Virus record (IMG/VR): IMGVR_UViG_3300025108_000360 | Coordinates: 1 to 24,908 of that record | Direction: 5' to 3' (one strand) | DNA length: 24,908 nt | From: a virus | Made by a program: the position numbers and the translations under genes | Part shown: positions 11,710 through 20,998 of the stretch, one piece after another | Layout: every line of letters begins with the position of its first letter | How positions within the stretch are numbered: the first letter of the stretch is position 1 | The notes under the pieces: model-generated | Told to the model about the DNA's origin: nothing | The model's input: only the letters and a program-made list of their open reading frames with translations | Database searches by the model: none

Positions 11710-14058
11710 TCACCAATATGTTGCGGGTCGGGGTTCTCCCATTGCGGCTCCAAGGTCCCAACCCATGACCTTGAACATTGTTTTTATTTTGCTTTGAACG
11801 AGTTTTTCAATGACTGCTTTCTTGTCAATCTCAAACCCATCCAAGTCTTCTTCTTCGCGATAAGCGGCGTACTTTGTAGGGGGTTTACCAACGGGAGGGT
11901 GGGAAACATACAGGTACGCGACAGAATCGCCTTTGATGTATTCATCGCCATCAGCGATGTGTTCATTGTAGTATTGTGCTCCTTGCGCGGCAGGTGTTTT
12001 GGAGGGGAAGACGCCAATGCGTGTCCATTGTGTAATCTCTTTCAAGTTGTATTCACCACGGCGGAGAGGCATGACCATCTCAAGGACAGCATCGCGCACA
12101 TCGCCTTCCGAGCCACCTGTGCAGATGAGTTCAAGCACTGTGCGTTCAGCACGCTTACTGATAGGTGCTTTACCGCTCCCCTTCATCAGTTGAGCGTTCT
12201 TCCATTTGCCTTTGTCGGCTTCGGGGTATGTCACTATGCCTGCATAGCGGTTGTTTGTCTCCAAATACCAGTAATCCATGTAAGCCTCAAGTTCCGCGAA
12301 CAACTTTTTGTTCCCGGTCTGTTCTTGGACAACATCAGTCACGCGCTTTGCTAAGCGTTCAGCATCTTCAAGGGGTACTTGAATGAAAGCAGAGTCGGTG
12401 AATCCGTAAATCACATTGTACCCCATGTTGGTTGCAACAGTGTCCAGCAGAGCAATGCAACGGCGACCCTCGGAGAGAATCGTTTCAGCAATATCCATGT
12501 CAGCCCAACCGTAACCAGCGTGCGCGGTGAGGCCGTATAGTGACGCCATGACCCGCTTGACTGCCGACTGTGTTGTGTTCCATGCGGCTCGCTCTTGCTT
12601 CGTTTTAGCGTCGCGCATGTTTTGTTTACACACATCACGGTAGTCGAACAGATAATCAACGATGGTAGGAAGTATGCCCTTCTCGCCTTGATACCAGTAA
12701 GTATCGTTCTCCATTCGCAGAACATCTTCGCCCGGTCCGTCACGCTTGGTAGTCCAGCATAGGTTGTAGCCTGTCATGAGTGATGGGTACAGTCCTTTGT
12801 AGTCCAACACTGCGACATTCTCGTAAAGGCCGTTGTCTTTCTTGATGAACTCAGCGCCCTTCAAGTCTTCTCGTTGTGCTTGGTATCGTGACGGGGCTTT
12901 CAATCCTGTTCGTCGGGAAATCAAACCGCGCGCAAAGTTCGTGACATTGGATACAGAACTCAGCGAAACGCCTGTCAGTCTCACCATCTCAACATAGAAG
13001 TCAGTGACATTGTGAGCCTCGTCAATACCTCGTAGCAGAACAGTGTCGAGCAGACAATAGTCAACGAACTCGGACCAATACTCATACCATCCATTGTGAA
13101 CAGTCATGCCCTCAATCTCTTCTGTGAGTTTTGAACCAAGTCCAAGCGTCTCAGCAATAGTATTCAACTTGAGGTTAGGTAGTTGTCCGCCACCACTGTC
13201 TTTCCATACACGCTCAAAGCCTGTTCCGCTTGTAGCAGGGGCGGCTGTGTCAAACTGCCAGCGGCCAGCGATAGGTTGGGCGTCGTATCGGTATCTCTTA
13301 CCCTTCTTTGGGTATCGGATAACACCGAGAGGACTCAACTTAGACGCACCACCGTGACCATAAATCTTGTCAAGGCGTTCAATCATGTGAGGTATGTCAA
13401 AGAAAGTTCCCGCATGAGCAATCATCATGTCGGGGTCGCGTTGGTTGAGGAAGACAATGAAGTTGTCATACATCTCCTTCTCGGAACCATAGAGATACAA
13501 ATCGTATTCTGTATCGCGCACCGATTTTTGCATAGGTCCGCTTCTCATGCCGTAACTTGTGTCAAGGGGACAATTGGTTCGCTCGTCAGCCCATGCAAAC
13601 ACAACGGGTGTGTCGAGGTCGGAGTCAATGACAGCAATGACAGTCGTGAAGTTGTCATCACCTGTGTCACACTCAATATCATACCACCACTTGCGCGGCT
13701 TCCACTTGGGCATTTCAGCAACATTGTTGATGAGGTATTGGTCGGGATACATCACATCAGCCTCGTAGGTTTTTGTGAAACCCATAGCCATGTTGTGTAT
13801 GTCATAAGGTGAGTCAGCCTCAACCTTCAACAACTTCGTCTTATCGAGAGCAGTGAATGTCTCGCCTTCAACCACTTGCGCGGTAGGGAAACTGCGAAGC
13901 ATTTTCTTGATTCGATATTCCGGCGTGTGTGCAGGAAGAAAGAAGTGGGGTCTGTAATCCAACTGACGGTGTTCAAACAAACTTCTGCTTTCTGTACCGC
14001 GCCATCTTGTATAGACAGTAGGCGGTCCGTCGTCGTTGTAAATCGCATCGACAATCAT
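11710..14058 (-). CDS. polB: Family B DNA polymerase
   Basis: 782 residues, replicative polymerase with proofreading exonuclease. Exo I is WYDIECD (Asp127, Glu129), Exo II has FFDIPH with Asp221 (the usual upstream Asn is Ala216), Exo III is DYCLLD (Tyr334, Asp338). Polymerase motif A is LDYKGLYPS (Asp419), motif B is KRVMASLYG (Lys501; the usual Asn is Ala505), motif C is YGFTDS (Asp555; the usual first Asp of YxDTDS is Phe553). NNRYAGI stands in place of the KKRY element. The essential carboxylates of both sites are kept, so it should be active. No intein is seen. The start overlaps the PCNA stop by 4 bases, with AGGTG upstream, matching the expected partnership with the clamp. Confidence 0.97.
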   Translation of the reverse strand: MIVDAIYNDDGPPTVYTRWRGTESRSLFEHRQLDYRPHFFLPAHTPEYRIKKMLRSFPTAQVVEGETFTALDKTKLLKVEADSPYDIHNMAMGFTKTYEADVMYPDQYLINNVAEMPKWKPRKWWYDIECDTGDDNFTTVIAVIDSDLDTPVVFAWADERTNCPLDTSYGMRSGPMQKSVRDTEYDLYLYGSEKEMYDNFIVFLNQRDPDMMIAHAGTFFDIPHMIERLDKIYGHGGASKLSPLGVIRYPKKGKRYRYDAQPIAGRWQFDTAAPATSGTGFERVWKDSGGGQLPNLKLNTIAETLGLGSKLTEEIEGMTVHNGWYEYWSEFVDYCLLDTVLLRGIDEAHNVTDFYVEMVRLTGVSLSSVSNVTNFARGLISRRTGLKAPSRYQAQREDLKGAEFIKKDNGLYENVAVLDYKGLYPSLMTGYNLCWTTKRDGPGEDVLRMENDTYWYQGEKGILPTIVDYLFDYRDVCKQNMRDAKTKQERAAWNTTQSAVKRVMASLYGLTAHAGYGWADMDIAETILSEGRRCIALLDTVATNMGYNVIYGFTDSAFIQVPLEDAERLAKRVTDVVQEQTGNKKLFAELEAYMDYWYLETNNRYAGIVTYPEADKGKWKNAQLMKGSGKAPISKRAERTVLELICTGGSEGDVRDAVLEMVMPLRRGEYNLKEITQWTRIGVFPSKTPAAQGAQYYNEHIADGDEYIKGDSVAYLYVSHPPVGKPPTKYAAYREEEDLDGFEIDKKAVIEKLVQSKIKTMFKVMGWDLGAAMGEPRPATYW

Positions 14059-14816
14059 TGGTCAACACCTTCTTGGTGCTTGAGGATGAGCATGCAATCC
14101 ACTTCTTGGTGCTTGAGGATGAGAGCACTCTCTTTGCCAATGAAGAACTCAACATCACCACTACCCATGACTCTCAATAGTTTAGGGAGAACTGACGAGA
14201 AGACAGTCTCAATCTTATCGAAGACAGGCGAACAGTCAACATCAATGACCCTGCTCATACGAGCACCGCGCATACTTCCGACAGTCACCGTCATCTCTTG
14301 TGTGTGCATGGTGATACGAACAGGTGCATCTTTGGAAGTTGCTTTTGTCATAGCGTCAAGTCCATGCAGGTCACTCATGGTTAGAGTTCCGCGACATTGT
14401 ATATCAGCGCGCCCTAACTTCTTGTAGCCGCTCTTCTCAAATCCTGAGATTGCAAACCTTGCTCGCGCAACAGTTAGATTGGATAGAACTTCAGTGTAAG
14501 TTGGGGTACTGTATTGGTCGTTTTCATTAACCAATGTCAGCACGCCTCCCACATGTCGAATGCTTGTGACACCCCCCTTGCACGCCTTGAGGAATGCGTT
14601 CACCTTGTCAAGTTGAGGGATGAATACATCGCCCATGTTGTATGTATCTCCCATGTTCACAACGATTGATTTGTGAACATAGTGGGTATCAACATCAGCC
14701 CAACCTGTCAACTTCATGTCTTTGATTTGACAGAAGAGGTCGTTGACGCCTTCGCCGAAGCCGGAAATAAACCCGCGCAACAAATCTGTGTTGAAACTCG
14801 CTTGAGCCAGCGTCAT
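14055..14816 (-). CDS. PCNA-type sliding clamp
   Basis: 253 residues, the usual size of archaeal PCNA. Recognisable parts are an N-terminal LLRGFISGFGEGVNDLFCQI helix, WADVDTHYVHKSIVV, the interdomain FIPQLDKVNAFLKACKG part, and the C-terminal beta hairpin SGDVEFFIGKESALILKHQE. Identity is low enough that the call also leans on the setting: it lies directly upstream of the polymerase and in one unit with an RFC-like clamp loader. ATG 14816 with GGGGAGG seven bases before it is preferred over a start 17 codons upstream. The C-terminus carries an 11-residue tandem duplication (LILKHQE twice). Its end overlaps the polymerase start. Confidence 0.82.
   Translation of the reverse strand: MTLAQASFNTDLLRGFISGFGEGVNDLFCQIKDMKLTGWADVDTHYVHKSIVVNMGDTYNMGDVFIPQLDKVNAFLKACKGGVTSIRHVGGVLTLVNENDQYSTPTYTEVLSNLTVARARFAISGFEKSGYKKLGRADIQCRGTLTMSDLHGLDAMTKATSKDAPVRITMHTQEMTVTVGSMRGARMSRVIDVDCSPVFDKIETVFSSVLPKLLRVMGSGDVEFFIGKESALILKHQEVDCMLILKHQEGVDQ
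14069..14123. repeat. Tandem 22-base repeat, period 33, at the PCNA C-terminus
   Basis: CTTCTTGGTGCTTGAGGATGAG occurs at 14069-14090 and 14102-14123. In the gene this is an in-frame 11-residue duplication of the last beta strand. The duplicated AAGGTG-containing end also supplies the ribosome site of polB. Confidence 0.9.
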
Positions 14817-14956
14817 TCGTATGCCTCCCCATTCAGCGTCATGTAAATCGCAATGCAGTCCTCGCAAATTGGCGCATCGGAGTCATCGCCCACGGATGCG
14901 TAGTCGCCTATCGCTCCGCAGAGTCTTGGTTTCAGTAGTCCTTTAATGTGAATCAC
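14813..14956 (-). CDS. Zinc-knuckle microprotein (about 47 aa)
   Basis: The minus strand between the DnaJ-type gene and PCNA is open as a short frame with Cys13, CEDC at 31-34 and a C-terminal helix IAIYMTLNGEAYE. Its stop overlaps the PCNA start (ATGA), and its last codons give the GGGGAGG site of PCNA. The start is unsure: a GTG at 14956 overlaps the upstream gene, while an ATT at 14947 stands five bases after a GGTGA site, in the spacing used by neighbouring genes. An ATT start would be unusual. Three cysteines only, so a zinc site would need another ligand. Confidence 0.55.
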   Translation of the reverse strand: MIHIKGLLKPRLCGAIGDYASVGDDSDAPICEDCIAIYMTLNGEAYE

Positions 14957-15317
14957 CTTTTGTTTCTTCATTCTTTTCACCTCTCGGTACATATCGTAAA
15001 CACACGCAGTCGTAAAAGAAAATGACTTCCTCTCCGTCCTTCATCATGCGTTCTTGAACCGCGCCTCCGCCTCCGCATTGCTTGCAGTTTGGGTCGGGGA
15101 CCACTTGCCAGTCAATGAAGATGCAATCACATGGGTGGTTGACGAACTCAACATCGACACACTCGCCCTCATAGTTCCGAACGGGTTGTTCAATGATGTA
15201 TTCACCAGTGCCTCCACAGGCATTGCAGTCGGGGTTTGCTTCGTAGCACGGATTGTCTTCAAGACTTCGGTCTGTGGCATTGTTATGCGCAGGCGTTCCT
15301 GTGGTTTTCCATGCCAT
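14943..15317 (-). CDS. DnaJ-type cysteine-rich zinc protein without J domain (124 aa)
   Basis: Two internal repeats of about 45 residues each hold a CxxCxGxG motif and a CxC motif: CNACGGTG (31-38) with CDC (63-65), then CKQCGGGG (78-85) with CVC (104-106). CxxCxGxG is the signature of the DnaJ/Hsp40 central zinc domain, which binds unfolded protein, but the J domain that recruits Hsp70 is absent. Similar lone DnaJ zinc repeats occur in many phage proteins of unknown role. ATG 15317 follows GGGTGA and shares one base with the upstream stop. Function: metal-binding adaptor, possibly chaperone-like; not provable here. Confidence 0.75.
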   Translation of the reverse strand: MAWKTTGTPAHNNATDRSLEDNPCYEANPDCNACGGTGEYIIEQPVRNYEGECVDVEFVNHPCDCIFIDWQVVPDPNCKQCGGGGAVQERMMKDGEEVIFFYDCVCLRYVPRGEKNEETKGDSH

Positions 15318-16324
15318 CAAACTTCACCCTCTCGTAGTTCCGGTAGTCCAAACCACTGAGGCGCTTCGTCCTTCTTCGTCACCATGATGGTGCGTCGTTG
15401 GTCAAGCAAGTTAGGGTTGGTCTTGATTTTGACGAACTCAACTTCGTAGCGTGTCTCACCTGTTGGTGAGTTATTTTCGCCGCGCACCTTCTTCTTGTGG
15501 AAGTAAAGGATTTGGTTGAGGTAGTTTGCAGTATGCTTCTCCCAAGATGGTTTCTTACCAATCACATTACCGCTCTTGTCTTGTAGTTCCTTGAAGTGGG
15601 TTTCAAAGTAAACATTGACACCAAGGGACATGAGCGTTCGAGCGATGGTTGTAAGTTGATGGAAACGCGTTGTGCGAATCTGCCAGTTGAATCGGAGTCC
15701 GACTTGTTCATGAGGCTTCACCTTTGCACCGATACCGTCGGGGGCTGTACCCAAGTCTTCGATGAACATGCAGTTCTTAGCCACTTCATCCCAAAGGTCA
15801 ACGGCGGTGATAAGTACCGAGTGAAGTCGAGGCTTGTCTCCGGGGCGTGCGGCCCAATCAACAAGCGTCTGTCCAATCTTCATGACACGACGATGCGTCG
15901 CAGGGTAGTCGATGGCTTCACGAATGTCACCGTCAGCGTCTGTCTGTCGGAACATGACATTCGGACTTAGGCAACGGATGTTCTTAGCATGCTCACGATG
16001 ATGTGTGACGCGGGTGGTCTGTCCGCCACCATCAAAGTCCAAGACGAAGATAACATCTCCGCGCTTCTTTTCTTCGTCACTCATGCTGTCGAGAACAATG
16101 CCAGTCTTACCGACACCTTCGGGACCGATGAGGCCCATGAAGATTTGACTCGTAGGCACTTCGTCACCAGCGTTGATGATTTCATCCCACACGGATTTAG
16201 CAATGGGTTGCTTGACGGGCGTGGTAGGGGCTTCAATCATCTCCCCGGTGGTCGGGTCGAAAGGTACAGGTTGTTCGGGTTGTTCGGGCTTGGCTTGGTT
16301 TTTCAAATCGTTTAGGTTTGGCAT
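15317..16324 (-). CDS. RecA/Sak4-like P-loop ATPase
   Basis: 335 residues. After a Pro/Gln-rich N-terminus come GLIGPEGVGKTG (Walker A, Lys73, Thr74), VIFVLDFDGG (Walker B, Asp96), SVLITAVDLW and VNVYFETHFKEL strands, and basic C-terminal strands, the order of the RecA-like core in AAA_24/Sak4-type phage ATPases and RadA relatives. Such proteins bind ssDNA and promote annealing or strand exchange. Its gene follows the probable ssDNA-binding protein, a pairing seen in many viruses. ATG 16324 is chosen because GGAGA lies about 10 bases upstream; a GTG at 16333 would sit on that site. The first 15 coding bases are identical to those of the preceding gene. Confidence 0.78.
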   Translation of the reverse strand: MPNLNDLKNQAKPEQPEQPVPFDPTTGEMIEAPTTPVKQPIAKSVWDEIINAGDEVPTSQIFMGLIGPEGVGKTGIVLDSMSDEEKKRGDVIFVLDFDGGGQTTRVTHHREHAKNIRCLSPNVMFRQTDADGDIREAIDYPATHRRVMKIGQTLVDWAARPGDKPRLHSVLITAVDLWDEVAKNCMFIEDLGTAPDGIGAKVKPHEQVGLRFNWQIRTTRFHQLTTIARTLMSLGVNVYFETHFKELQDKSGNVIGKKPSWEKHTANYLNQILYFHKKKVRGENNSPTGETRYEVEFVKIKTNPNLLDQRRTIMVTKKDEAPQWFGLPELREGEV

Positions 16325-16329
16325 GTTAT

Positions 16330-17652
16330 TCACTCTCCGTATTGGGTAATGTTTGTGTCGCCGCCTTCACCAGCAGGGATGGCGAGGCGTGGGACTGCGT
16401 AAACACCGAAGGTCTTGATGGCAGGTTCGGGTCCGTCATCAGTGACGCGCACACTCAATCGTCCGAAGACAATGACTGTGGACTTCACTGCGTATGGTTT
16501 CCATCCTTCCTCAGTGGCATAATCGAACGGGTGACCCTCGTCTCCGAGGACTCCGTGGATGTAGCAGGGTAGGTTCTGTCGGCGACTTCCGTTGAATGTA
16601 CGCATGAGGTCGAAGGATGACAGCGACATTGAGTAGTCGTGACCAATCGGGTCCCACTCTGTCTCGCGTGCTTCCTTTCGCATGTCACTGACTTTGCCTC
16701 TCACAAAGACAAGAGGTCCGACGGGGTTGTATCCGGGGACAATCTCTTGTCGCGTCTCAAAAACTTCAGCGAGCGATGAGAGGTCTTTGATGTGACTGTC
16801 GAGTCCGGGGACAAGTCTGTCCGGTCGGATGACATCACGAATCTCTTCATCGACAAACTCGTTGCCGTAGGTGAAGGAGGCAGGCAGAGGGTAGGCTGTG
16901 TAGGAATCAGCCCACTCCGGCTTGACATTCTTTCCTTGAGGTCGCACCTTGAGTGTGCCTTCTTGGAAGAGTTGAGGGATGAACCACTCATCGGGATTCT
17001 TTGAAGTCACACTGATGCGCAACACTCTCTGTTCGTTCAAGTAGTTGTCCTTGTCGTTACCGAGATAGTAGTAGGTTCGCTGGTGTCGGTACGGTGTGAT
17101 TGGTTCACCGTAGCGGTTCCATTCGGAGTTGTTTTGAAGGATGGCGATGCTCAGTCCGTGTTCTTCAAAGAGGAACCATGGCTTGGTGTCTGCTGATTCT
17201 TCGGTAGCCTTCGGTCCGTTGACTCCCTCAAGCATCCACACACCGTTCTCGGTGTATGCGCGGGCCACAAGTCCTTGTTGGATTGCGTCGTCAAGGTCGT
17301 TCATAGCGGCTGACACTGCTGGTCCGCGCTTTCGTTCTTGGCTGTCACGGACTTTCGGGTCAACACCAATGAAGTATCCGACGAGTTCAACTGCATTGTT
17401 GTTCCCGCCGCTCATGACGCGTCGCTCAACTACGAAAGTCTCTGCGGCATCAATCATGAAGTCTGCTTCTTCTGCGTCGGGGTTGTCAACTCCGAGTTCG
17501 TTCTTGAGGTAGGTGTAAAAATCACCTGTTGCGTCGTCAAGACTCTTTCCGTTCTTCTCAGCCCACCACTTAAGGCGTTCTTCCACATCGCTGTGAAGGC
17601 TGTTGTTGTTTTTGGCTTCAGTTTGGTTTTGGTTTTGGTTTAGGTTTGGCAT
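16330..17652 (-). CDS. Probable ssDNA-binding protein (RPA-like OB fold suspected)
   Basis: 440 residues. The N-terminus is an Asn/Gln tract (MPNLNQNQNQTEAKNNN). Residues 75-90 and 325-430 contain beta strands that look like OB-fold barrels (VELVGYFIGVD; PLVFVRGKVSDM; KSTVIVFGRLSVRV; KTFGVYAVPR), and the middle has many Trp, Tyr and Phe, which suit base stacking. No firm motif identifies the family. The call rests on this composition and on context: it lies between the clamp loader and the RecA-like ATPase, where a replication protein A equivalent is expected and otherwise missing. GGAGG precedes ATG 17652 by 7 bases. Alternative: a virus-specific recombination or structural protein. Confidence 0.45.
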   Translation of the reverse strand: MPNLNQNQNQTEAKNNNSLHSDVEERLKWWAEKNGKSLDDATGDFYTYLKNELGVDNPDAEEADFMIDAAETFVVERRVMSGGNNNAVELVGYFIGVDPKVRDSQERKRGPAVSAAMNDLDDAIQQGLVARAYTENGVWMLEGVNGPKATEESADTKPWFLFEEHGLSIAILQNNSEWNRYGEPITPYRHQRTYYYLGNDKDNYLNEQRVLRISVTSKNPDEWFIPQLFQEGTLKVRPQGKNVKPEWADSYTAYPLPASFTYGNEFVDEEIRDVIRPDRLVPGLDSHIKDLSSLAEVFETRQEIVPGYNPVGPLVFVRGKVSDMRKEARETEWDPIGHDYSMSLSSFDLMRTFNGSRRQNLPCYIHGVLGDEGHPFDYATEEGWKPYAVKSTVIVFGRLSVRVTDDGPEPAIKTFGVYAVPRLAIPAGEGGDTNITQYGE

Positions 17653-17681
17653 GTTTAGTCCTCCTTGTTTTGGTTTTGGTT
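17626..17681. repeat. TTTTGG hexamer tracts around a start codon
   Basis: The 15-mer GTTTTGGTTTTGGTT occurs at 17626-17640 and 17667-17681. On the minus strand these code for the NQNQN tail of the clamp loader and the NQNQNQ head of the next protein, flanking its ribosome site and ATG. Confidence 0.85.
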
Positions 17682-18545
17682 TTTTGTGTGTAAGGTCGCT
17701 ACGAAGTAGTCAATAAATGATTCACTTCCAAGGTCCCATTGGTTCATCTTCAAGACGAAATCTCCCCACACAGAGAAGAAGGTATATAGTTGTTCCGAGG
17801 TCATCCCCACGGTTTTCACATATTCGTGAATGCGACGCATGATGTATTGATGGGAAGAGCCTTCCCTTAGCATATTCAACATGGTTCTGTGGGCAGACTC
17901 CCACTCATTAGCGGCCAAGTCGAGGGCCAATGAATCCAAATCATCTTGTTCTTCGGGGAACAATTCAAGTCCACTTAGAAGATGATTGCCGATTGCGCGA
18001 AGGTCGCCTCCGAACTGTGAATGCAGTACCTCGGCGCTGACCGTAGGTGAAATGCCTTGTCTCACAATCAAGTGTTCAATATACGCGCGCACATGTTTTA
18101 CTTCGTATGGTCGGAATTTGAACATGACGCATCGTGACTTGATAGCAGGGATAATCTTGCTTTGGTCGTTGCAAGTTAGTATCCACCAGCAGTTGCTTTT
18201 CTCCATGATACGCTTCAATGAATCTTGCGCAGGCTTGGTAAGACCGTCAGCCTCATCGAGTAAAATCAGTCGGCCACCATCCCAAAGGTTGGTCGCTTGT
18301 GCAACTTGCTTCAACTTGTTTCGGATGAATTCAATGCCGCGCTCATCGCTTGCATTGTATTCGACTACCTGTAATCCAAGATGCTTGGCTATGATGTATG
18401 CCGCACTTGTCTTTCCAAGTCCCGGCGCTCCATGCAACAGAAGGCATTGGGGGCTATCAGCATCCCACTCGTCAAGGTAAAACAAGGGCATGTGTGGTTC
18501 GTTCGCTCCGATAAAATCGGTTAATTTTCGGCAGGTGAGTTTCAT
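17655..18545 (-). CDS. Clamp loader ATPase, RFC small-subunit type
   Basis: 296 residues of the AAA+ clamp loader family. Walker A HGAPGLGKTS (38-47), the EYNASDERG signature (62-70), Walker B LILLDEADGLT (93-103), sensor 1 TCNDQSK (124-130) and the SRC arginine-finger motif (137-139) are all intact, followed by the three-helix lid (GGDLRAIGNHL) and a C-terminal collar. It should load the PCNA encoded in the same unit. It is somewhat shorter than cellular RFC small subunits (about 320). No large subunit gene is seen, so it may act alone as a pentamer or with a host subunit. First gene of unit 2, with a GAGGAAG site; the tail is Asn/Gln-rich. Confidence 0.95.
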   Translation of the reverse strand: MKLTCRKLTDFIGANEPHMPLFYLDEWDADSPQCLLLHGAPGLGKTSAAYIIAKHLGLQVVEYNASDERGIEFIRNKLKQVAQATNLWDGGRLILLDEADGLTKPAQDSLKRIMEKSNCWWILTCNDQSKIIPAIKSRCVMFKFRPYEVKHVRAYIEHLIVRQGISPTVSAEVLHSQFGGDLRAIGNHLLSGLELFPEEQDDLDSLALDLAANEWESAHRTMLNMLREGSSHQYIMRRIHEYVKTVGMTSEQLYTFFSVWGDFVLKMNQWDLGSESFIDYFVATLHTKNQNQNKED

Positions 18546-18714: not shown

Positions 18715-19068
18715 TCAATCTTCTCTATCTAACAGGTCGATAATTTCGGCTATCTCTGTGTGCGTGGGAGCACGCCCCTTGAAATCCATGAGCCTTACCA
18801 TCTTCACCATGTTCTTCAAGTCGTACACATGTTGTTTGACGGGTGAGAGTATTCGGATGATGTGCCGTATCAATTCGGCATCCTTGAGGATTCGTGCATT
18901 GATACCCTGCGTGGCGAGCCACATGTTGAGAGCGGGTTCGTCCTTTCGGCTGACCAAGACGCGCCTCTCCACACGGTATCCAATTCGTGTCTTCGGAGAG
19001 AAGTGAACGCTTAGTTGGAATCGACATTCCCTCGCCAGCCAACCGAGGAAGAAAGCGTCTTCATCCAT
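18715..19068 (-). CDS. Small protein resembling a degenerate LAGLIDADG domain (117 aa)
   Basis: The N-terminus AFFLGWLARECRFQLSV followed by a beta-rich stretch with GYRVERRVLVSRKDEPAL recalls the LAGLIDADG homing endonuclease fold (helix, then saddle strands, then a helix after 'SRKDEP'). The acidic metal ligand at the end of the LAGLIDADG helix is at best a Glu, and only one such helix is present, so nuclease activity is doubtful. The C-terminal 50 residues are helical (IRHIIRILSPVKQHVYDLKN). An ATG at 19068 is preferred over a GTG at 19077. It is the last gene of unit 1. The family call is tentative; a DNA-binding protein is the safer statement. Confidence 0.5.
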   Translation of the reverse strand: MDEDAFFLGWLARECRFQLSVHFSPKTRIGYRVERRVLVSRKDEPALNMWLATQGINARILKDAELIRHIIRILSPVKQHVYDLKNMVKMVRLMDFKGRAPTHTEIAEIIDLLDRED

Positions 19069-19073
19069 TCGGC

Positions 19074-20378
19074 TCACTTCTCCATCAAGTCACCAATCTG
19101 CATAGCATCCGACTGTCCAAGAGTCGTGTCTATTCGTGCAAGATATGGAGCGCGCATCTTCTTACTCTCTTCATCATACCCAAGCGAATGGAAGATGCCA
19201 ATCATCCCTTCGTCAATGTCCATCATGCCTTGCGCTTCGTAAAGACGAGTCAACTTATCCGGTATGTCATCCGCTTTCACATAGGCGTAACCCACAGGGA
19301 ATGGGTCGAAGCCGTCAAGCGCGGCGAGTTTAATTCGTATGCCTTCGCCTTCACGAAAGCCTCCAAGTATCAGTAGCGGTATGTCAAATGTTCTTCTCGG
19401 CACAATAAATCCTCCAACAGCCCCACTGTGATAGTAGGGTCGTTCACCATCCAAGAGGCGCAGGGTTTCACCGTCCTCTAAATGCTGAACGAGTGCTCTC
19501 AAATGGGCGCGGTCTTCCACCTTCTTGGGATTCGTGGCACGCGCGGTTCTGTTATCTTTCCATAGATTCGGCTCACCCTCACGGTACAACCATTCCACAA
19601 TGTTCCCCTGCTCATCCATCTCACACACGCAATCGTCTTCGCCCTCAATAAGAGGGGCGCGCGCTATGCGTAGTCCTTGACGGTCATACGAGTATAGCCT
19701 TCGGCTCCGCCTGTGTACGAAGTAGTTTTTTCCTCGGACGATTTCGTAGTGTGTTTCTTTGAAGGGTAGTGACCATTTATTCCATCGAGAATAGTTGGGC
19801 GCTTGGAAAGGATAGGTGGGCTGAATAGCATACTCGGTCGGGAGAGTGTTGTTGATTGCGCGCTGGATAACTTCACCTGTGGGCATGAGCGCACGCATCT
19901 GTTGAAGGTGATTCGTCTCATACGGTGTTGTGTGTGCAACAGCCCTCATGATAGGGCGTTTGTTCAACGCGCTTCGTCCAAAGCAAAAGCCCCAAAACAG
20001 CATCGCACCTAATTGTGACATTGAGTTGAATAGAATGTCTGCGTTCATCTCATTCTTGATAATCATATCTTTGAACTCAATGGCTTGGCGAAGCGTGATT
20101 GATTCGGCTACATCGGTTGGCGATTCGGATGCAAGGAGCGCGGGCATCTCTTGTTCATCCATGAGCGATTCGTATTCTTCGGGGAACAGACCATACGATT
20201 CGGCTAACATGGAAACGACATGGTGAGATTTTATTGAACTTCGTGGACTTGCGCAACACAGTGTGATAATATCGTGAGCGTCCGATTCGTGTTTCGTGAA
20301 AAGGTCGGAGAGTATTTTCGGGTGCTTCGGTTCTGTTTGATGAGCACGCACTGCGCTTGCCAATTCCTCAAACTTCAC
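19074..20378 (-). CDS. ATP-dependent DNA ligase-like protein with degenerate active site
   Basis: 434 residues with the three-part layout of ATP-dependent DNA ligases. The N-terminal helices (FEELASAVRAHQTEPKHPKI) match the ligase DNA-binding domain. The middle has YEIVRGKNYFVHRRSRRLYSY (about 211-231), in the place of motif I (E-x-K-x-D-G-x-R, then the YSR strand), and IEGEDDCVCEMDEQG (244-258) in the place of motif III. The end (FDIPLLILGGFREGEG, then PVGYAYVKADD) matches the ligase OB fold. The nucleophilic Lys expected at Glu212+2 is Val214, and the motif V lysines are also not evident. It therefore looks catalytically dead, or uses another residue. The start is GTG 20378 with GAGGAAGA upstream. 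Family call from pattern only. Confidence 0.5.
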   Translation of the reverse strand: MKFEELASAVRAHQTEPKHPKILSDLFTKHESDAHDIITLCCASPRSSIKSHHVVSMLAESYGLFPEEYESLMDEQEMPALLASESPTDVAESITLRQAIEFKDMIIKNEMNADILFNSMSQLGAMLFWGFCFGRSALNKRPIMRAVAHTTPYETNHLQQMRALMPTGEVIQRAINNTLPTEYAIQPTYPFQAPNYSRWNKWSLPFKETHYEIVRGKNYFVHRRSRRLYSYDRQGLRIARAPLIEGEDDCVCEMDEQGNIVEWLYREGEPNLWKDNRTARATNPKKVEDRAHLRALVQHLEDGETLRLLDGERPYYHSGAVGGFIVPRRTFDIPLLILGGFREGEGIRIKLAALDGFDPFPVGYAYVKADDIPDKLTRLYEAQGMMDIDEGMIGIFHSLGYDEESKKMRAPYLARIDTTLGQSDAMQIGDLMEK

Positions 20379-20998
20379 TCTTCCTCATCACCCTTGGCAT
20401 TGAATATCAATCCGCGCAAGTGTGGAGGTACAGGCTGACCGTTCCATTCGGACGGCATGATGACCACCGATGCTTCTTCAAGTTCCTTCATCAGCGTTCC
20501 ACTATCTGCAATCTCTATGATTTCACCGCGCTCAAGAACACTCATGCCATCCCAAGAAAAGAACAATTCGTCACCAGCGATGAGGTGGAAGTCCATAGGC
20601 GCTAACTCTTGTTCGCTGTCTTCATGCTTGACCAGCACGCGCCACTCAGCGTTGTCAGTCTCTCTCCATTCAGCGTTCTCCAAATCAAAATTGACAAGCG
20701 GCACGCCACTCTCTTCGTGTATCCATTCCTTCGCAGTATCTTGCGCGGCTTGCATTGGGTCTTCGACAACCTCAACTCCATCAGCGTTTAGCGCTATGCC
20801 AATTTCAGCACACACTTTACCGATGCGCTCAAGAGGAAGGATGGAAGAGGGCGTGGCTTTCGTGATGCGAAAACCATCTTCGTCTTTCATGAGGACAGCA
20901 TCAGCGATACCCCATGTGTCACCCACTTGCATCTTCTCATAGTGGTCTTTCGTCCATTCAATGTCTTCCGCTGTGGGTTCCCAATTATCTTCAATCAT
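20375..20998 (-). CDS. Acidic protein of unknown function (207 aa)
   Basis: 207 residues, strongly acidic, with alternating helix and strand. WTKDHYEKMQVGDTWGI and a VEVVEDPMQAAQDTAKEWI helix stand out; the C-terminus KGDEEE is coded by the purine-rich ribosome site of the next gene. No motif recognised. ATG 20998 has AGGTGA six bases upstream and overlaps the preceding stop. Could be a DNA mimic or protein-interaction factor on composition, but nothing specific supports that. Confidence 0.7.
   Translation of the reverse strand: MIEDNWEPTAEDIEWTKDHYEKMQVGDTWGIADAVLMKDEDGFRITKATPSSILPLERIGKVCAEIGIALNADGVEVVEDPMQAAQDTAKEWIHEESGVPLVNFDLENAEWRETDNAEWRVLVKHEDSEQELAPMDFHLIAGDELFFSWDGMSVLERGEIIEIADSGTLMKELEEASVVIMPSEWNGQPVPPHLRGLIFNAKGDEEE

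Follow-up and report, generated by a model that had tools for sequence, protein, structure and literature searches.

The window, i.e. the whole analysed stretch of 24.9 kb, is a virus record carrying a replication gene set of the magrovirus type, which includes genes coding for a family B DNA polymerase, a clamp-loader small subunit (RFC-S), an ERCC4/XPF-type nuclease, a PD-(D/E)XK nuclease and an SNF2 helicase, together with a chaperonin of the TCP-1/cpn60 family (thermosome); the primase and the clamp are represented by sub-threshold matches only. The same gene set is found in magroviruses, the tailed viruses of Marine Group II archaea (PMC10768690, PMC12999244), which are characterized by their own replisome (PolB, clamp, clamp loader and primase), a chaperonin and genomes of 90–110 kb (PMC10768690). 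The virus described here likewise combines its own replisome with a chaperonin, and its relatives include contigs of 100–118 kb, which agrees with the magrovirus genome size. We infer that it belongs to Magrovirales and has a host from Poseidoniales.

The ORF at 19074–20378 on the minus strand, which had been described from the sequence alone as a dead DNA ligase, was confirmed to be real, and its product is hereafter referred to as the pseudo-ligase. The gene is located in a replication operon with the following members:

20375–20998, minus strand: very acidic protein of 207 aa encoded immediately upstream of the pseudo-ligase gene, with a 4-nt overlap; synteny with the pseudo-ligase is conserved
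19074–20378, minus strand: pseudo-ligase gene, 434 aa, GTG start; three-domain ATP-dependent DNA ligase fold without the catalytic lysines
18715–19077, minus strand: 120-aa gene overlapping the pseudo-ligase gene by 4 nt; located between the pseudo-ligase and RFC-S genes in the relatives examined
17655–18545, minus strand: RFC-S, clamp-loader small subunit, anchor of the syntenic operon; Pfam AAA (E-value 2.5e-14), L033 ortholog (E-value 9e-36)
11710–17652, minus strand: 440-aa protein, RecA/RadA-like ATPase, probable sliding clamp and family B DNA polymerase, in the same order as in L033

The gene order is therefore pseudo-ligase, 120-aa gene, RFC-S, 440-aa protein, ATPase, clamp, PolB, and the 4-nt overlaps of the pseudo-ligase gene with its neighbors on both sides suggest that it is co-expressed with the replisome genes. 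The distance from the end of the pseudo-ligase gene to RFC-S is about 360–590 nt with one small gene in between in nearly all the viruses possessing the pseudo-ligase, reaching up to 1.1 kb in a few. The upstream 207-aa protein has a net charge of −16 per 100 aa and a pI of 4.2. The counterparts of the 120-aa gene beside lysine-bearing ligases are weakly LAGLIDADG-like (best E-value 0.009, below the cut-off), so by sequence resemblance this gene is possibly a domesticated homing endonuclease.

The same operon slot is occupied in a sister clade of viruses (L033, L206, L211, L215, L218, L225 and others) by ligases which, unlike the pseudo-ligase, keep the motif I [ED]-x-K-Y-D-G and the lysines of motifs IV and V. 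In L033 the order is lysine-bearing ligase, small genes, AAA ATPase, RFC-S, 416-aa protein, RecA-like ATPase, clamp and PolB, and the genes shared with the window are RFC-S (E-value 9e-36), PolB (1e-54), the ATPase (2e-6) and the 440-aa protein gene (3e-5). The PolB gene of L033 (L033:9481-12805) is apparently split into ORFs of 585 and 307 aa located about 640 nt apart.

Fold and relationship to ATP-dependent DNA ligases

Searches with the single 434-aa sequence gave no match in Pfam, PHROGs, NCBIfam, PDB or GenBank phages. Relatives with identity values from 100% to 49% were collected by iterated searches, and a scan anchored on the neighboring RFC-S gene added many further remote relatives in the same operon slot, so that members of the resulting 45-sequence alignment have identity to the window protein as low as 17%. 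No cellular copy was found in the genome_contigs scan. The pseudo-ligase is acidic (pI 5.6); the idea that this acidity reflects a loss of DNA binding was rejected, since RFC-S of the same viruses is shifted likewise, which makes it a lineage effect.

The AF2 model built from the 45 sequences, none of which has the motif I catalytic lysine, reached a mean pLDDT of 88.8, compared with 47 when 11 close relatives were used as input. Its best Foldseek matches in PDB are ATP-dependent DNA ligases, namely 9dfa (E-value 4.6e-16), 3rr5 and 2cfm. In the VIA structure alignment to 3rr5, 430 of the 434 residues were aligned with a Z-score of 17.8 and an rmsd of 7.9 Å, the high rmsd probably reflecting a different placement of the domains. 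At the profile level, hhalign aligned the family colinearly with lysine-bearing ligases (residues 5–434 on 3–509, E-value 9e-10, score 81.5) and gave an E-value of 1.4e-6 with archaeal ligases alone. Since hhalign E-values refer to single-pair comparisons, controls were also run: the reversed profile scored 19.4 and the maximum for 30 column-shuffled profiles was 22.7. The comparison was weak with shallow alignments and became decisive once remote family members had been added together with the ligases of the syntenic viruses. The nearest lysine-bearing sequences are the ligases of the syntenic viruses (E-value 2.8e-8).

By both fold and descent, the protein is thus a member of the ATP-dependent DNA ligases, and the three-domain layout recognized in the initial annotation (DNA-binding, nucleotidyltransferase and OB domains) is borne out by the model, by Foldseek and by hhalign. 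The structure prediction and profile search proposed there gave a structural match to ligases over the whole length and a profile–profile match at 9e-10, despite the empty single-sequence Pfam search. The regions are as follows:

19839–20378, minus strand: DNA-binding-domain-like helical region, residues ~1–180, from the secondary structure of the model and conservation
19389–19838, minus strand: nucleotidyltransferase-like region, residues ~181–330, with motif I (Y211–H222), motif IV (302–307) and motif V (324–328)
19077–19388, minus strand: OB-fold region, residues ~331–434, with motif VI degraded to R-I-D-T-T

The three-domain ligases of archaea and eukaryotes (Pfu 2cfm, Thermococcus 3rr5 and 9dfa, human LIG1 and LIG4) share with the pseudo-ligase the domains, their order and the match over the whole length. 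They differ from it in being about 550–600 aa long as compared to 434 aa, with about 15% identity, and in the catalytic residues: the lysine of motif I is replaced by valine in the pseudo-ligase, that of motif IV by arginine and the first one of motif V by valine, and RxDK of motif VI is lost.

Catalytic motifs and invariant residues

The motif I segment of the window protein reads Y211-E-I-V-R-G-K-N-Y-F-V-H222. The column of V214, the position expected to hold the nucleophile, contains V in 21, I in 19, L in four and S in one of the 45 sequences and never K. The motif I register may be off by one residue, and an H/G-anchored register would pick I213, the column of which has a single lysine, in L172. 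Both candidate positions are encoded here:

19737–19742, minus strand: codons of I213 and V214, two candidate nucleophile positions; K in 1/45 and 0/45 aligned sequences, respectively

Motif IV is recognizable as [ED]-G-E-x-L-R307, with the EGxxxK lysine changed to arginine in 44 of the 45 sequences. Motif V, W-x-K-x-K in ligases, reads F324-I-V326-P-R328; the column of its first lysine (V326) has V in 20 sequences, L in 15, M in six, A in three and Q in one with no K, and that of R328 has R in 25 and K in nine. In the OB domain, R-I-D-T-T stands in place of the motif VI R-x-D-K. The window protein therefore has neither the motif I lysine nor the motif IV and V lysines nor the RxDK of a functional ligase. 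The claims made from the letters alone, that motif I, read as E-I-V-R-G in the window protein, lacks its lysine and that the motif V lysines are not evident, hold across the family, the latter as far as the first lysine is concerned, and the proposed inspection of Val214 in homologues returned V, I, L or S in every case.

Another possibility considered was a ligase still active through a catalytic lysine at a new position, given the strong conservation of the protein, the presence of K217 and R215 near the pocket of the window protein and the fact that the related virus G006 has no other lysine-bearing ligase. However, no lysine column of the nucleotidyltransferase domain exceeds 42% of the sequences, the highest one corresponding to residue 192, upstream of motif I; K217 is replaced by Q in L005 and L006 and by S in L025, and the triphosphate residues of motifs V and VI are lost as well. 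With no conserved lysine column in the domain, this explanation was rejected as very improbable, and the different lysine in the ATP pocket that would have spoken against a dead ligase did not appear.

Eleven residues, namely E85, S86, A125, W129, R280, G323, D355, G356, G421, D424 and Q427, are invariant in the 45 sequences, and the DNA-binding-domain-like region contains a near-invariant family-specific segment LASES (82–86) as well as A125/W129. The PIP-box-like sequence Q122-x-x-A-x-x-F-W in the same region is not claimed as a clamp-binding motif, as it has Ala at its fourth position and forms a helix of the DNA-binding domain; neither DNA-binding residues nor a clamp-binding motif could be pinpointed in the pseudo-ligase.

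The persistence of these residues, from E85 to Q427, at identity values down to 17% is what would be expected if the protein had been exapted as a new enzyme or a purely protein–protein adaptor acting through residues held invariant since the loss of catalysis. Some of them may nevertheless be purely structural, as several are Gly, Ala or Trp, and no known catalytic constellation was recognized among them, which leaves exaptation rather unlikely.

Conservation, distribution and other ligase-like proteins

An intact ORF was found in 58 distinct relatives of at least 350 aa, and the gene is kept in every virus of the group with a readable operon slot. Its dN/dS values, calculated for three virus pairs, are 0.05–0.15, comparable to those of RFC-S and the RecA/RadA-like ATPase, and such conservation is beyond chance. 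The intact ORFs and the purifying selection refute a decaying pseudogene or an assembly artefact, which the missing catalytic residues might otherwise have suggested and which now has a practically negligible probability. Taken with the structure, the profile comparison, the synteny and the family-wide loss of motifs, they support the original description of a dead ligase kept at full length.

In the RFC-S tree, the viruses whose operon ligase bears the lysine group together in one clade of 11 rows with a support of 100/100, and the viruses with the pseudo-ligase are located outside it, so a single inactivation is enough to explain the distribution. Among the unlabelled rows, L187, L190, L195, L200 and L202 lie outside this clade and have a diverged pseudo-ligase in the slot, and four further ones fall inside; the slot is unreadable in L158, L159 and L198, the contigs of which end there. 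The direction of change was presumably from lysine-bearing to dead, judging from the lysine-bearing cellular ligases.

A second ligase nucleotidyltransferase domain was observed in a giant protein of about 1700–2400 aa (e.g., L260:2515-8562 in G006 and L261:30-5555 in G012), a family with matches in 22 of the 23 large contigs searched. In G006 the giant protein has 2016 aa and is encoded upstream of the head maturation protease and the major head protein, and its ligase domain is dead, with S-L-Y-P-Q-G in motif I and I-L-L-R in motif IV. The domain is likewise dead in most of the viruses, the motif I lysine being lost and that of motif IV replaced by arginine. Shorter copies of 831–887 aa are present in G023, G026 and G040, and both of those translated (G026 and G040) have the canonical motif I, unlike the long versions inspected.

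G006, a 102.9-kb contig with a pseudo-ligase gene about 70% identical to that of the window, possesses no ligase in which motif I contains the lysine, the giant-protein domain being its only other ligase-like sequence. More generally, PF01068 searches and motif inspection found no lysine-bearing ligase in 18 of the 22 contigs of at least 75 kb, a count to be read with the reservation that contigs may be incomplete and diverged ligases can escape Pfam. Two of the viruses with the pseudo-ligase, G018 (L238) and G030 (L237), contain an extra 380-aa ligase with the motif I Q-R-K-F-D-G, which in G018 also matches an OB-domain family.

An "ATP-dependent DNA ligase" has been reported for magroviruses with the same replication gene set (PMC10768690, PMC12999244, PMC10160649). 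At least one published magrovirus ligase, that of a group A magrovirus, adjoins the prohead protease (PMC7318539), which is where the giant protein found here is encoded, and thus fits the giant protein. The operon pseudo-ligase has no Pfam match. No earlier description of the operon pseudo-ligase was found in the literature searched, although a remark on its inactivation may exist in the core magrovirus papers.

Possible role in viral replication

The retained ligase fold with its DNA-binding and OB domains, in viruses mostly devoid of a lysine-bearing ligase in their large contigs, would also be compatible with a nick or end binder which shields viral DNA from, or blocks, the host ligase and repair, in line with the nick sensing, end protection or block of host repair suggested in the initial annotation. 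It would sit on nicks and leave them unsealed, for example keeping replication or packaging intermediates open. However, the gene belongs to the core replisome operon and not to the accessory or early host-takeover genes, and a virus having no ligase needs that of the host to seal its own Okazaki fragments. Such an antagonist is accordingly judged unlikely, and the strict operon position by the clamp loader, the clamp and the polymerase favours, though it does not prove, a role inside the replisome over an attack on host repair.

The explanation that we consider the most plausible, and hold to be rather probable, is that the protein was once the replicative ATP-dependent DNA ligase in a magrovirus-like marine virus of archaea, lost catalysis and has been kept as a non-catalytic replisome or nick-binding pseudo-ligase. 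A non-catalytic replisome factor is the simplest reading because the ligase shape is kept, the AMP-handling residues are gone and the gene is fixed beside the clamp-loader gene. The invariant E85, S86, R280, D355, D424 and Q427 count against it, as they could reflect a novel interface or novel chemistry.

According to the preferred explanation, catalysis would have been lost in an ancestor of most of the virus group, and the pseudo-ligase may still associate with viral DNA containing nicks or ends, or else with the clamp and the clamp loader, as a structural subunit of the replisome. It might hold Okazaki nicks or hand them over to the host ligase, and sealing would be performed by the latter or, in the few genomes having one, by another viral ligase. 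A comparable logic is known for Lig4, as its catalytically inactive form promotes joining by Lig3 (PMC9638927), so a ligase deprived of its lysine may still promote joining by another ligase. That form differs in being an engineered K273A mutant and not a natural family, and in acting in double-strand-break repair and not in viral replication.

A wider proposal is put forward more tentatively, with slightly more doubt than confidence: in most magrovirus-like viruses both the operon ligase and the giant-protein domain may be structural pseudo-ligases, the former serving as an obligatory non-catalytic replisome subunit which manages nicks for the host ligase. As neither ligase-derived protein looks catalytic in most of the large contigs examined, these viruses probably rely on the ligase of their hosts. 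If this is true, the published view that such abundant viruses of marine archaea possess a complete replication set with a ligase is to be corrected, the role of a non-ligating ligase in a replisome becomes a testable question, and the operon protein represents a natural pseudoenzyme family which spans a clade and stems from a replicative DNA ligase.
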